Source of the DNA: a virus
DNA length: 29,609 nt
IMG/VR virus record: IMGVR_UViG_3300006735_000146
Span: 1 to 29,609 of that record
Reading direction: 5' to 3' (one strand)
Positions 4,195-28,284 of this stretch are shown one piece after another (the stretch's first letter is position 1; every line of letters starts with the position of its first letter). A program made the position numbers and the translations under genes. A model generated the notes under the pieces. The model made no database searches and was not told the DNA's origin. It was given only the letters and a program-made list of their open reading frames with translations.

Positions 4195-4511
4195 TAATGT
4201 TTCCCATTTACTCTAGACAAACTGCCTTTTATTTCAGACACTTGATTGTCTAAATCATTTATTTCTTTTGTCATATTATCAAATTTTCTATCAAGCTTAT
4301 CGTCTGATTGATTCCATCTATTAATTAGCTTAATTATCATTCCTTCAGTGTTTTCAAGTGTTTCAGATTGACCCTTATTCTCTATCTCTAGCTTTCTTAA
4401 AGCGTCTGCTTGTTCGTTTCCTCTTTTATTCATTGAATAAACCATAAAAACGAACATAGCCCCTACTACACCTATCATTCCCGCTTCTGAGTATATAGCT
4501 AGAAAATCCAT
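4194..4511 (-). CDS. Membrane-anchored coiled-coil protein (BhlA/UviB-like holin candidate)
   Basis: 105 aa. An N-terminal membrane segment (about residues 10-26, AGMIGVVGAMFVFMVYS) is followed by a basic NKR border. A long charged helix then runs from about residue 30 to 97, with heptad-like spacing suggesting a coiled coil (LRKLEIENKGQSETLENTEG; NMTKEINDLDNQVSEIKGSL). Small proteins with this order occur as BhlA/UviB-type holins or as accessory lysis proteins. The ribosome site GAGGAGGAAT lies inside the 3' end of the preceding 33-aa gene, and the start overlaps that gene's stop (TAATG). It could also be an inner-membrane spanin-like component, although its helix would then have to face the periplasm. 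Confidence 0.68.
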   Translation of the reverse strand: MDFLAIYSEAGMIGVVGAMFVFMVYSMNKRGNEQADALRKLEIENKGQSETLENTEGMIIKLINRWNQSDDKLDRKFDNMTKEINDLDNQVSEIKGSLSRVNGKH

Positions 4512-4612
4512 TATTCCTCCTCTTGAGGACTACATTTACTACAGACCCAATTATCTGTATTGTTTATTGGTTTATCACAATCACTGCAATGGTTTGGTAT
4601 CGGTTGATGCAT
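4511..4612 (-). CDS. 33-aa zinc-ribbon-like miniprotein
   Basis: A tiny gene locked between two others: its ATG overlaps the upstream stop (TAATG) and its stop overlaps the next ATG (TAATG). The protein has two CxxC pairs, HCSDCDKP and WVCSKCSP, spaced as in a minimal zinc ribbon or rubredoxin-like knuckle, followed by an acidic end PQEEE. The exact coupling at both ends and the clean Cys4 pattern argue that it is real despite its length. It may bind zinc and act as a small regulator or adaptor; nothing in the sequence shows a partner. The codons for the EEE end also form the strong ribosome site (GAGGAGGAA) of the downstream membrane protein, so this gene may partly serve as a translational relay. 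Confidence 0.62.
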   Translation of the reverse strand: MHQPIPNHCSDCDKPINNTDNWVCSKCSPQEEE

Positions 4613-22103: not shown

Positions 22104-22110
22104 CAGCACC

Positions 22111-22191
22111 TACTGTATATATACTTTACAGTATTATTATACGTAGTATAATAATACAGATTATATACTGTACTGTATATATACTGTATAA
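22111..22191 (-). promoter_or_regulatory. Late-operon control region with TACTGTA repeats and 12-bp palindrome
   Basis: Four copies of TACTGTA on the plus strand (22111, 22166, 22171, 22182) and one inverted copy TACAGTA at 22127 lie just upstream of the terminase genes. The 15-mer TACTGTATATATACT occurs at 22111 and again at 22171, exactly 60 bp apart. A perfect inverted repeat of 12 bp (22131-22142 and 22146-22157, 3-nt centre) sits between them. On the minus strand TATAAT at 22165-22160 could be a -10 box, with TACAGT 17 nt further upstream in the -35 position. I read this as the promoter and operator of the late operon, probably driven by a phage activator or repressor. Confidence 0.55.
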
Positions 22192-23131: not shown

Positions 23132-23168
23132 ATAGATGCATTCAGTCCTAGTGATTGGGTGCATCTAT
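23132..23168 (+). other. Stable hairpin after the 120-aa gene
   Basis: Outer perfect stem of 9 bp (ATAGATGCA with TGCATCTAT), then a TT/GG internal loop, an inner 5-bp stem (CAGTC with GATTG, one G-U) and a CTAGT loop. It starts 15 nt after the gene's stop. Only a short T-run follows (TATTT), so it may be a weak terminator or an RNase III type processing site. The G-U pair favours the plus-strand transcript. Confidence 0.55.
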
Positions 23169-23193
23169 TTAAACCCTACATTAAAAAAATTGT

Positions 23194-23314
23194 TAGTAGT
23201 TGACCTAAGTGGTGGTTACAAGTGGTTATATAATCGAAAGGTATAGCTGAGGGGTAACATATAAGTCGTATTTCACTACGCAAAAGGATAATGGCAGACC
23301 TTAAGCAACTACTA
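23194..23314 (+). ncRNA. Candidate structured RNA 0, multi-helix
   Basis: 121 nt closed by a 9-bp perfect stem (TAGTAGTTG 23194-23202 with CAACTACTA 23306-23314), continued after an internal loop by TAAG/CTTA (23206-23209 with 23300-23303). Inside are a GTTAC/GTAAC stem (23215-23219 with 23254-23258) that encloses GGTTATA/TATAGCT (23224-23230 with 23242-23248, two G-U pairs), and a small CGTA/TACG hairpin (23267-23270 with 23277-23280). No open frame of note crosses it. The branched layout suggests a folded RNA rather than a terminator. Function unknown. Confidence 0.42.
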
Positions 23315-23322
23315 TCTAACAT

Positions 23323-23465
23323 AATAAAAAGCAACAAGTAAGGCTTATTTAAAACTTGTAATAATCAAGTGGACTTGAGATATGGAATGCGCATTCTTGC
23401 TCTCTTAAGCTATAGGTATTCGACCTAGGATTAGCGGGATAACTACCTGAACGTTGCTTTTTATT
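23323..23465 (+). ncRNA. Candidate structured RNA 1 with alternative internal pairings
   Basis: 143 nt closed by a perfect 13-bp stem (AATAAAAAGCAAC 23323-23335 with GTTGCTTTTTATT 23453-23465). Inside, CAAGT occurs twice (23335 and 23366) and ACTTG twice (23354 and 23373), so two mutually exclusive hairpins are possible. Further right lies a GAAT-GCGC-ATTC hairpin, then a 9-bp stem with a 4-nt bulge (GCTATAGGT with ACCTA and TAGC, 23409-23435, loop ATTCG). It starts 8 nt after RNA 0. The 3' closing arm ends in TTTTTATT, so it could also act as a terminator for upstream transcription. A 52-aa gene starts 18 nt further on. Confidence 0.45.
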
Positions 23466-23483
23466 TAATTCAAGGTAAAAAAA

Positions 23484-23748: not shown

Positions 23749-23785
23749 TGAGCAGTCATGGATTCCGCATTGATATGGCTGCTCA
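23749..23785 (+). other. Hairpin 2 with 11-bp stem
   Basis: TGAGCAGTCAT (23749-23759) pairs with ATGGCTGCTCA (23775-23785) over 11 bp with one U-G wobble that pairs only in the plus-strand sense. The loop is 15 nt. A smaller AGACC/GGTCT hairpin (23731-23735 with 23745-23749) overlaps its first base and competes with it. It follows the 30-aa gene by 17 nt. No U-tract follows, so it is not a classical terminator. Confidence 0.5.
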
Positions 23786-23801
23786 AATATTATTAGAGAA
23801 C

Positions 23802-23839
23802 AAGTAGGTTGTAGCCGTAATGAACTCGAGGCCCTACTT
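23802..23839 (+). other. Hairpin 3, AAGTAGG/CCTACTT
   Basis: A 7-bp perfect stem with a 24-nt loop containing a GCC/GGC inner pairing. Flanking AACA and TGTT can extend the outer stem past a bulge. It lies 16 nt after hairpin 2 and 20 nt before hairpin 4, so the three form a tandem run. Confidence 0.4.
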
Positions 23840-23859
23840 ATTGTTACTCAAACAAGGTC

Positions 23860-23889
23860 TGCTCTGTACCTTGACACCAAAACAGAGCA
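23860..23889 (+). other. Hairpin 4, TGCTCTGT/ACAGAGCA
   Basis: An 8-bp perfect stem with a 14-nt loop (ACCTTGACACCAAA). It ends 17 nt before RNA 5. A TACTGTA copy, the same word as in the late control region, lies at 23895. Confidence 0.45.
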
Positions 23890-23906
23890 AAATTTACTGT
23901 AAAAAG

Positions 23907-23973
23907 CCAGACTCTGTGTTAGACAGCTGTTGATACCCACACTATCCACGTCACGTGTTATGGGAGAGTCTGG
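23907..23973 (+). ncRNA. Candidate structured RNA 5
   Basis: 67 nt closed by a perfect 9-bp stem (CCAGACTCT 23907-23915 with AGAGTCTGG 23965-23973). Inside, CCCA pairs with TGGG and CACG-TCA-CGTG forms an apical hairpin; ACAGCTGT (23923-23930) is a local palindrome. It is compact, but the length and the lack of a TTCRANN T-loop exclude a tRNA. Function unknown. Confidence 0.42.
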
Positions 23974-23988
23974 TAAATGTTAGCTAAC

Positions 23989-24092
23989 GGGATGAGTTTA
24001 CGAGATTAAAACTCGTGGTTTGATTTAGCAGAGCTTATCAAATAGATCAAATAAGTTAAGGCGTTGCAAGACGTAACTGTAAAACTCATCCC
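23989..24092 (+). ncRNA. Candidate structured RNA 6, four-helix cloverleaf
   Basis: 104 nt. Closing stem of 11 bp (GGGATGAGTTT 23989-23999 with AAACTCATCCC 24082-24092), extended by two pairs across a bulged A. Within are three hairpins: CGAG/CTCG (24001-24004 with 24012-24015), AGCTTAT/ATAAGTT (24032-24038 with 24051-24057, one G-U), and CGTT-GCAA-GACG (24062-24073) with a GNRA tetraloop. A closed four-way junction with a GNRA loop is typical of functional RNAs. It ends 70 nt before the 44-aa gene that leads into the ParB-like gene, so a riboswitch-like leader is one reading and a free RNA another. Confidence 0.5.
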
Positions 24093-24162: not shown

Positions 24163-24297
24163 ATGAATAAAACAAAAAACAAAACTAAAAAAAAGCTTCT
24201 AACAGGTAAAGCGTTAGAAAGAAAAATAGAGCTAGATAACGAACTAGCATACATACAACAAAAAATAGATCTATTCATTGAAGGGAGTTATAAATGA
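24163..24297 (+). CDS. 44-aa basic coiled protein coupled to the ParB-like gene
   Basis: MNKTKNKTKKKLLTGKALER, then a helix KIELDNELAYIQQKIDLFIE and GSYK. The first 13 residues are very basic. Its stop overlaps the ParB-like ATG (ATGA), and its 3' end carries that gene's ribosome site (GGGAG). No strong ribosome site of its own is visible. Probably a small DNA- or protein-binding partner of the ParB-like protein; it could also simply be a translational leader. Confidence 0.55.
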   Translation: MNKTKNKTKKKLLTGKALERKIELDNELAYIQQKIDLFIEGSYK

Positions 24298-25967: not shown

Positions 25968-25989
25968 TTGCTGTAGGTAATGGTGCGTG

Positions 25990-26031
25990 GTGGCTCTGTG
26001 TAAAATTCCCCTAATTGGGTTGCAGAGCCAC
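25990..26031. terminator. Hairpin between convergent genes
   Basis: A perfect 9-bp stem (GTGGCTCTG 25990-25998 with CAGAGCCAC 26023-26031) and a 24-nt loop containing CCC/GGG. It fills the gap between the ParB-like gene (plus) and the regulator (minus), immediately before the regulator's stop codon. A convergent position and a G+C-rich stem make a bidirectional terminator likely, although no strong T-run follows on either side. Confidence 0.6.
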
Positions 26032-26760
26032 TTATTGGTCTAAAAATTGAGTTTTACATTCAGCTCTATGAGGGTTTTTTAACCAATGTATTCTAATATT
26101 ACAAAGTGAATGCACAAGTTTATCATTATACTTATAAGTTATTAACTGCTGAAAATAATGCTCACCTACTAATAATTTTAAAGATTCAAATAAACTAGGC
26201 ATCTGAACAGATAACCCTTGTAATTCTTTTAAGGTATTAGGCTCAATAATACTATTAACTGGATGGTCATTAAAATCATGCCATTCTCCTACAGAAAAAT
26301 AATCTTTAAGCAAAATATCTTTTTTTAATTCTAGCATTTCAGAGAGTTGTTCTACTCCATGCCCATTCATTTCTTTAACAACTCGTTTAAATGGTACAAA
26401 TGTTACATACACATCTGAATAAAAATCATATGATAGTTCATCCCATTTTTTAGATTGTACAGAATATGCGTTTTGTTTTAGTTGATTATTAATTTCTTCT
26501 AATCTTTCGATTTTTTCTTTTTGTAAATCAATAATGTATTGTGCTTCCATGTTGTTCTCCTTATCTAAACTTATTTCAGCATTTGAAAACTCTATTTCGG
26601 TTTTATAAATATTAATAAGCTTATTTAAGGACCTTACTCTTACTTCACCACCATTGATCCAATTATACAAAGTCTTTCGACTAATCTTTGCTTTTTTAGA
26701 TATAGCAGTTAGTGGTATATCCGTTGACATTAACCACTTTAAAATTGCTTCTTTATTCAT
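26032..26760 (-). CDS. Helix-turn-helix regulator (repressor candidate)
   Basis: 242 aa. The N-terminus is a helix-turn-helix (residues about 16-40: PLTAISKKAKISRKTLYNWI) with an Asn/Gly-rich turn, of the XRE/Cro-like type. A helical, probably coiled-coil linker follows (EAQYIIDLQKEKIERLEEIN). The C-terminal half (DELSYDFYSDVYVTFVPFKR onwards) is a compact alpha/beta domain I cannot name. It lacks the Ala-Gly cleavage site and Ser-Lys pair of CI/LexA-type repressors, so if it is a phage repressor it is not induced by RecA autocleavage. It is the only minus-strand gene among early plus genes and faces a gene whose promoter gap holds an operator-like palindrome. Confidence 0.72.
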   Translation of the reverse strand: MNKEAILKWLMSTDIPLTAISKKAKISRKTLYNWINGGEVRVRSLNKLINIYKTEIEFSNAEISLDKENNMEAQYIIDLQKEKIERLEEINNQLKQNAYSVQSKKWDELSYDFYSDVYVTFVPFKRVVKEMNGHGVEQLSEMLELKKDILLKDYFSVGEWHDFNDHPVNSIIEPNTLKELQGLSVQMPSLFESLKLLVGEHYFQQLITYKYNDKLVHSLCNIRIHWLKNPHRAECKTQFLDQ

Positions 26761-26797
26761 AACCCAAATTACTCACTATACTCATTAAATTCAACTT

Positions 26798-26850
26798 TTT
26801 GTGTATTAAAACTACACAAAGGTTGCAATAATGTGTATTTATTATTAAAC
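26798..26850. promoter_or_regulatory. Divergent promoter gap with operator palindrome
   Basis: A perfect 8-bp inverted repeat, TTTGTGTA (26798-26805) and TACACAAA (26813-26820) around TTAAAAC. A third half-site TGTGTATT at 26832 follows. It lies between the regulator (minus, start 26760) and the 123-aa gene (plus, start 26867). On the plus strand TTGCAA (26823) with TAAACT 17 bp later is a plausible promoter. On the minus strand TATAGT (26780-26775), 17 bp beyond the outer half-site, could serve the regulator. The palindrome sits next to or within both -35 boxes, which fits autorepression and control of the neighbour. Confidence 0.58.
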
Positions 26851-26866
26851 TAACAAAGGAATAAAC

Positions 26867-27238
26867 ATGATAAACGTACCATTAAAAGAAAGTTTAAGCT
26901 ATTCAACAATTGAAAAACTTAACTCTTTCAGACAATCAAATTTACCTATTAAAACATTAGGTATATTATTTAAAAATGCCATAGATACTGACCTTCATCG
27001 TGATACACAGCTTGCAAGGTCACAAGCTTATGGAAAAACATTTGCTAATGAAATTCTTGACATAAGAATGATGAGCAAAAGACAATTACACACTTACCTA
27101 AAAAATCTTAGGTATATAAACGGATACCAGAACAGTTATGTAAAAAGCACGTTATCTAAACAAGATAAACTTGATTTAGCTAACAAACGCAAATTGTACA
27201 GTTACGCTAGTACACGATTGAAACTCACGAAGAACTAG
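26867..27238 (+). CDS. 123-aa hypothetical early protein
   Basis: Starts MINVPLKESLSYSTIEKLNS with AAAGGA before the ATG. Helical and basic, with ARSQAYGKTFANEILDIRMM, a Tyr/Leu-rich stretch QLHTYLKNLRYINGYQNSYV, and a basic end YASTRLKLTKN. No clear helix-turn-helix. Its position, divergent from the regulator across a shared operator, is that of a Cro- or anti-repressor-like first gene of the early operon. Function unknown. Confidence 0.62.
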   Translation: MINVPLKESLSYSTIEKLNSFRQSNLPIKTLGILFKNAIDTDLHRDTQLARSQAYGKTFANEILDIRMMSKRQLHTYLKNLRYINGYQNSYVKSTLSKQDKLDLANKRKLYSYASTRLKLTKN

Positions 27239-27487: not shown

Positions 27488-28213
27488 ATGATAATGACAC
27501 ACTGCGGTGGACGAATTGTAAACTTCGATGAAGTTGCATCCGTTCCCCTTCCACAACAAACCGATACGTATATACCAGTTGGATATGAAGACTTGGTAGT
27601 AAATACGAGAAAAATAGCAGACAGACTGCTTAATGAATATTCTTTTTCAAAAGATCAATATGCATTAAGTGGTGGTGAAAATAAAGACCAAAGAATGTTT
27701 GCAGTCTTGCAGTACGAATCACAATCAAATCCAGAAATGGGTTATGCGATTGGTATTCGTTCTAGTTATGATAAATCAATGAGCAATGGTTTTTGTTCAG
27801 GAGCACAAATCTTTGTATGTGATAACCTTATGTTTCGTGGCGAAGTCACTTACATGAGAAAACATACAAAAAACGTATGGAATGATATTGAAGAAAAAAC
27901 TATGGCTACACTTTATAGAGGCATAGACAATTTTCAAAATCTAACAAAAGATTCTGAAGCAATGAAAGGTAGAACATTGTATAAAGATGAAGCTGGAGAG
28001 TTTCTTGGTCGTTTATTTATAAATGGCGATATGACTCCTAGACAAATGCAAAAAGCTAAAAAAGAATGGTTTAAACCTTCTCATGAAGAGTTTGATTCAA
28101 ACACAGTATGGAGTTTATACAATGCCTGTACAGAGTCACTAAAAACTACACCCCCAAACAAAATCTTAGAAAGACACATATCATTGCACGATAATGCAAT
28201 GGCTTTGTGCTAA
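27488..28213 (+). CDS. DUF932-like phage/plasmid protein
   Basis: 241 aa. The pattern SKDQYALSGGENKDQRMFAV, then NPEMGYAIGIRSSYDKSMSN, GFCSGAQIFVCDNLMFRGEV and the helical C-terminal part matches the DUF932 family of phage and plasmid proteins. That family's members have a conserved ...R.SYD.S....G....VCDN.M...E core. Molecular function is not established. Its usual neighbours are early replication/recombination genes, as here with ERF. No strong ribosome site is visible; MIM gives two possible starts two codons apart (27488, 27494). Confidence 0.75.
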   Translation: MIMTHCGGRIVNFDEVASVPLPQQTDTYIPVGYEDLVVNTRKIADRLLNEYSFSKDQYALSGGENKDQRMFAVLQYESQSNPEMGYAIGIRSSYDKSMSNGFCSGAQIFVCDNLMFRGEVTYMRKHTKNVWNDIEEKTMATLYRGIDNFQNLTKDSEAMKGRTLYKDEAGEFLGRLFINGDMTPRQMQKAKKEWFKPSHEEFDSNTVWSLYNACTESLKTTPPNKILERHISLHDNAMALC

Positions 28214-28219
28214 TCTGAA

Positions 28220-28277
28220 TGCTCCCTCTTACTTATATATATTTAACGTCATGGTTATTATTTATTAAGGGGGAGCA
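28220..28277 (+). promoter_or_regulatory. Stem masking the ribosome site of the next gene
   Basis: TGCTCCCTCTTA (28220-28231) pairs with TAAGGGGGAGCA (28266-28277) over 12 bp with one U-G. The right arm contains GGGGGAG, the Shine-Dalgarno of the 62-aa gene whose ATG follows 7 nt later (28285). When folded, the site would be hidden, so translation should depend on melting, on ribosomes arriving from upstream, or on a regulator. The 34-nt loop is A/T-rich. Confidence 0.62.
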
Positions 28278-28284
28278 ATTTAAT

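Follow-up and report, generated by a model that had tools for sequence, protein, structure and literature searches.

The window, meaning the whole 29,609-base virus record that was analyzed, is part of an uncultured phage whose genes encode an SU10-type capsid protein (E 8e-20), a terminase, a P22-like portal, and an ERF protein. Its terminase, portal, and capsid have only distant relatives among the GenBank phages. Between 22.5 and 24.1 kb lies a row of small structured RNAs, and the core member of this row is a cloverleaf RNA (Table 1). The short ORF that follows the cloverleaf gave no match in a Pfam search and is 95% identical in the related contig L001. The product of the next gene matches the PHROG ParB-like partition protein (E 4.1e-14) and, below the Pfam cut-off, ParB_N (E 4.4e-05). 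A PADLOC search of the operon returned no convincing defense protein.

Table 1. Features of the RNA region and the genes directly downstream of it in the window.
Feature	Position	Strand	Remarks
Module Z, larger structured RNA, 13-bp closing helix	22523..22681	+	Close to where the rightward region begins
Module H, hairpin whose loop UGGAYUYCGCA is conserved	23750..23784	+	Covariation
Module F, hairpin with closing stem GAGAACAAGTAGG/CCTACTTATTGTTACTC	23796..23849	+	Folded; homologues in L008, L023
Module F2, H-type pseudoknot by inspection	23853..23888	+	S1 CAAGGU/ACCUUG, S2 GCUCUGU/ACAGAGC
Module B, structured RNA with closing stem GCCAGACTCT/AGAGTCTGG	23906..23973	+	Folded; homologue in L003
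5′ linker TAAATGTTAGCTAAC, within the exchanged block	23974..23988	+	Identical in L005
Module A, cloverleaf RNA (four-way junction), locus core	23989..24092	+	Fold z; 13 distinct homologues
P1 closing helix, 5′ strand	23989..23999	+	Pairs with 24082–24092
P2 hairpin, 5 bp, 7-nt loop AUUAAAA (loop 24005–24011)	24000..24016	+	Covariation
P3 hairpin, two tip alleles, AGC-AGA-GCU or AAC-NNNN-GUU	24018..24043	+	Alignment
P4 hairpin, hypervariable, with a GCAA loop only in the window and L005	24054..24078	+	Alignment
P1 closing helix, 3′ strand	24082..24092	+	Same pairing analysis
44-aa ORF, first gene 3′ of the cloverleaf	24163..24297	+	Overlaps the ParB-like start by ATGA
ParB-like protein, 557 aa	24294..25967	+	Pfam ParB_N, PHROG

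Fold and conservation of the cloverleaf

A preliminary description of this DNA had reported an 11-bp closing stem with three hairpins inside it, and both are present. The closing helix P1, in which GGGATGAGTTT pairs with AAACTCATCCC, encloses the hairpins P2, P3, and P4, and the segment has a minimum free energy of −34.1 kcal/mol (z −5.78) that none of 200 shuffled sequences equaled in stability. When both strands of the whole window were searched for perfect Watson–Crick closing helices of at least 11 bp spanning 70–130 nt, only the cloverleaf and one A/T-run stem were found. The cloverleaf region was not outstanding in a sliding z-score scan, mainly because fixed 120-nt segments cut the modules; the scan was dropped as evidence, and the proof of the cloverleaf therefore rests on comparison. 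Strong plus-strand folds were also seen outside the RNA region, at 4361–4520 (z −5.3) and at 28161–28280 (z −5.7), the latter at a gene junction.

The cloverleaf was found in the window and in 15 other IMG/VR phage contigs, giving 13 distinct sequences among the 16. These contigs are metagenomic, several are fragments, and going by their identifiers we take them to come from aquatic, mostly marine, samples. One relative was obtained by searching with the ParB-like protein and more by pattern scans, while terminase and DUF932 searches supplied independent loci; since the collections were scanned by exact patterns, the reach is limited to close and moderate relatives. Trained on 12 of the 13 distinct sequences, a covariance model detected one convincing copy per contig searched. 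All nine contigs with a full-length ParB-like homologue (42–79% identity) carry the cloverleaf, and in L070 and L071, where the ParB-like matches are only partial (25–36%), no cloverleaf match was found in the stretch searched. It is also present in a distant group (L026/L041, L027/L042, and L030/L044) with terminases only ~29–30% identical. Among GenBank phages, no match was obtained by megablast, by distant blastn, or by tblastn with two ParB-like proteins. Fourteen pattern matches in genome contigs were rejected as chance, as the best of them reached a model E of 0.07 and the closing helix was absent.

Across the 25 consensus pairs and 13 distinct sequences, all 325 cells of the alignment hold standard pairs. 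When the partners were slid by 1–3 columns, only 34–46% of the cells remained paired, whereas column shuffles retained 95%. Both-side changes occur in five pairs and amount to 19 cells, compared with 6.3 by shuffling. Because the shuffles ignore relatedness, more weight falls on the slid control and on how the changes are patterned. Furthermore, at five positions on one strand a G-U pair stands in place of A-U or G-C, and this assigns the RNA to the plus strand; the covariance model likewise scored ~21 bits on the minus strand versus 117 bits on the plus strand.

The loop sequences are conserved as well as the helices. P1 shows one compensatory change (U-A/C-G) among its 11 pairs and an A-U/G-U replacement at pair 7. 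In P2, three of the five pairs are changed on both sides (alleles ACGAG/CUCGU, CUGAG/CUCAG, and CUGUG/CACAG) around an unchanging AUUAAAA loop, and GAUUAAAAC is invariant in the 13 sequences. The outer four pairs of P3 are kept in 13 of 13, with one compensatory change, as is the base helix of P4 (AGUUA/UAACU), the apical part of which varies in length and sequence. The relatives are 102, 104, 106, and 116 nt long and consequently share no common reading frame; a coding explanation was ruled out by these indels of 2, 4, and 14 nt.

Two details of the preliminary description did not survive the alignment. The GCAA cap is indeed present on P4 of the window, but outside the window it occurs only in L005, and with arm 4 hypervariable a GNRA loop is not a defining feature of this RNA. 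The two extra closing pairs proposed past a bulged A (A12-U92 and C13-G91) become C-C and U-G in L008-type relatives, whereas A12-U28 (A-U/C-G) and C13-G27 (C-G/U-A) covary in the homologues; these bases therefore close hairpin 2.

Does the cloverleaf belong to a known class? In a covariance-model search with Rfam 15, which includes riboswitches, ribozymes, phage RNAs, GOLLD, and ROOL, no match reached the gathering threshold in the window and 11 related loci; at a permissive threshold there was one chance match elsewhere (13 bits vs. 224). ARAGORN found no tRNA genes in the window or in 13 loci. With no Rfam match, and with every one of the 325 cells paired among the homologues, the earlier suggestion of a functional structured RNA of no recognized class has held, and the cloverleaf it pointed out is confirmed as real. 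It is a previously unclassified, strongly conserved four-armed phage RNA.

Neighboring modules and exchange between phages

At least three other modules (H, Z, and C) show compensatory changes: five among the 10 pairs of module H in 7 sequences; 15 among the 40 consensus pairs of module Z in 6 loci, with 221 of 234 cells paired; and three among the 23 pairs of module C, which is not in the window and occurs in L001, L003, L005, L028, and L043. A motif related to module H is also found in the distant group (L041/L044). Modules B, F, and F2 recur in other arrays. F2 is a 36-nt block identical in the window, L008, L023, and L043, without covariation, and is likely a pseudoknot as read by eye. The order of modules is H-F-F2-B-A in the window, H-C-A in L001, H′-..-E-C-D-A in L005, F-F2-E-A in L023, ..-C-..-F2-A in L043, and H-F-F2-..-D-A followed by further folded sequence in L008. 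The cloverleaf (A) is the one member common to every array seen, in part because it was the means by which several of the loci were identified. The motif TTAGCTAA of its 5′ linker is also present in L001, L003, L008, L009, L016, L022, L023, L028, and L029.

Further folded sequences were seen in and around these arrays. A hairpin at 23132–23168, 3′ of the 120-aa ORF, is formed by ATAGATGCATTCA...TGGGTGCATCTAT and has paired changes in L001 (GATACACTTA/TAGGTGTATC). Two more multi-arm folds are predicted at 23192–23470, between the 120-aa and 52-aa ORFs, and part of this stretch is 84% identical in L009. Module Z of L008 (locus ~2299–2512) holds ~55 extra nt with an apparent closed hairpin of their own, AAAGAACT...AGTTCTTT, suggestive of an insertion of one RNA module within another. 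Just 3′ of the cloverleaf, L001 (5349–5400), L022, and L023 carry a small hairpin, GGACATTTTTGTCC; the L016 hairpin at this place, GGACAAAAATGTCC, is exactly its reverse complement and looks inverted.

Comparison of the window with L005 revealed 120 identical nucleotides, running from 15 nt 5′ of the cloverleaf to 1 nt 3′ of it. On the left, this block is flanked by different RNA modules in the two phages and on the right by different genes, and the genes near the locus are ~76–78% identical in DNA where they can be aligned. There is another block of 91.9% identity at 25983–26874, so other parts have also been exchanged. The window cloverleaf resembles that of L027 (core 89% and overall 80% nucleotide identity), a phage with a terminase only 29% identical in amino acids, more closely than that of L008 (core 76%), the terminase of which is 92–94% identical. 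The cloverleaf allele type is discordant with the phage phylogeny, and the L028 cloverleaf appears to be a hybrid between both types of RNA. Conserved in structure on the plus strand, the cloverleaf occurs as a single copy at a fixed place and is exchanged as a unit; judging from the sequences, phages appear to swap it module by module, within bounds set by the RNA's own ends. As a separate observation, the HTH protein of the window (26032–26760) shares 91% identity with its L005 counterpart but only 40–42% with those of much closer phages, which marks a second exchange point and perhaps an immunity-type repressor.

Transcription context and possible functions

Could the cloverleaf be a leader that controls the ParB-like operon, as the preliminary description hinted? 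A gene-specific leader or riboswitch implies a constant downstream family, and we found about nine kinds of first gene, at +23 to +378 nt from the cloverleaf. The 12 kb read for L029 and L043 showed no ParB-like gene downstream of the cloverleaf. Because the first gene varies between phage groups and other RNA modules can intervene, the hint is weak, and we do not favor regulation of the ParB-like gene in cis.

No sigma-70-like promoter was recognized on the plus strand between 22152 and 24400. An A/T-rich palindromic stretch at 22110–22180, which contains a good sigma-70-like promoter (TTTACA-16-TATAAT, 22125–22152), separates the terminase-side genes from the rightward block; self-inverted matches of ~80 bp recur in related contigs, and it is possibly a bidirectional promoter or an origin.

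The best explanation, to which we would give an even chance, is that the cloverleaf may be a free-standing RNA cassette of the phage that acts in trans, perhaps as a decoy for a host factor. Heading the rightward ParB/HTH/ERF replication-type gene block, it would be made as part of a long rightward transcript and released by cleavage at the AU-rich linkers. That it acts in trans seems rather probable. The exchange of alleles, together with the layout of P2, suggests a decoy for a host factor that binds or cuts tRNA; this layout is like that of an anticodon stem-loop (5 bp and a 7-nt loop with U33, UAA at 34–36, and A37). The likeness is weak because A/U-rich 7-nt loops that have U33 and carry a purine at position 37 are common by chance, and outside P2 the cloverleaf is not tRNA-like. 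Antagonism of a host RNA-binding factor is the least certain step, and we put it forward only tentatively; invariant P2 would be the recognized part, and the variable arms might be under diversifying or relaxed selection. About as doubtful is an extension to the whole row, in which aquatic phages, both related and distant, would exchange folded RNA cassettes that work in trans against host defenses. The core cloverleaf would then be accompanied by interchangeable members, and RNA folds rather than proteins would be the anti-host units exchanged.

The fixed place before replication-type genes suits a cis role as well. The cloverleaf might lie in the leader of the rightward operon and govern read-through, stability, or processing of the whole early transcript instead of a single gene, similarly to a put-type antitermination RNA, the put RNA itself being two hairpins. 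An RNA acting on the polymerase would be indifferent to the identity of the next gene; the cloverleaf precedes the ParB/HTH/ERF block in the contigs examined, and no intrinsic terminator was recognized between it and the operon, save for a scan match that is hairpin P2 itself. However, p120, p52, a 30-aa ORF, and RNA modules separate the sole good promoter-like site from the window cloverleaf, other modules come after the cloverleaf in L008 and L009, and exchange of alleles between phages is unexpected for a polymerase-binding element. We consider this reading unlikely. The chances are poorer that the modules are stable spacers or RNase barriers in a polycistronic phage mRNA that only set the processing points and half-lives of small genes. 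The modules do alternate with small ORFs, and the AU-rich linkers fit endonuclease cleavage, but such a role needs neither the invariant loops GAUUAAAAC and UGGAYUYCGCA nor a single cloverleaf copy.

A role at the DNA level, as a dyad to which the ParB-like protein binds, or as an origin or recombination site that folds as RNA by chance, is highly improbable. The 11-bp inverted repeat adjoins the ParB-like gene and the exchanged block has sharp ends; on the other hand, G-U at five positions breaks a DNA dyad and not an RNA helix, and the loops are conserved as well as the helices, both of which are signatures of RNA. An integron attC site was rejected, since the ends AGCTAAC/GGGATG and CATCCC/TATTAATTA do not correspond to its core sites, RYYYAAC and GTTRRRY. 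Despite the cloverleaf outline, a degenerate tRNA or a chance fold can be dismissed, the former on the negative ARAGORN and Rfam results and the latter on the covariation.

In most phage accessory islands described so far, the members are proteins or tRNAs. At this locus, it is an RNA that is best conserved within the region, and this RNA apparently travels with cut points at its own ends; the row it belongs to indicates a layer of phage RNA about which little is known. Should the modules act in trans, as the cassette reading proposes, phages would keep a repertoire of RNA effectors invisible to protein-based searches, and the covariance model together with the list of modules offers a direct means to look for them.

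Comparison with known systems

Like the put RNA of HK022 (PMC9378689), which heads early phage operons, the cloverleaf is a structured RNA; unlike it, the cloverleaf is a four-way junction, lies 3′ of several genes, and has alleles that are exchanged. Pseudo-ToxI of phage PhiTE, a precedent for the kind of action proposed for the cloverleaf, is a phage RNA that neutralizes a host defense nuclease by mimicry (PMC3475682). The neighboring module F2, which reads as a 36-nt H-type pseudoknot, recalls pseudo-ToxI and the type III antitoxin RNAs, whereas the cloverleaf is neither a pseudoknot nor a tandem repeat, and no toxin gene was identified.

Another precedent is provided by phage tRNAs that escape anticodon nucleases, and phage tRNA arrays, which are also small structured RNAs in rows at one place in the genome, have been proposed to blunt tRNA-cutting defense (PMC10264068); P2 of the cloverleaf resembles an anticodon stem-loop. 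In contrast to those arrays, no tRNA was detected here, there is no T-loop or CCA end, and the modules within one array are unrelated to each other. GOLLD and ROOL are single large RNAs located near tRNA islands, with GOLLD often exceeding 800 nt (PMC12286853), whereas the cloverleaf is ~104 nt long, stands among many separate modules, and has no Rfam match. They are nevertheless akin to it as structured noncoding phage RNAs, the function of GOLLD and ROOL being unknown too, and GOLLD, like the cloverleaf, combines a conserved part with a variable one.
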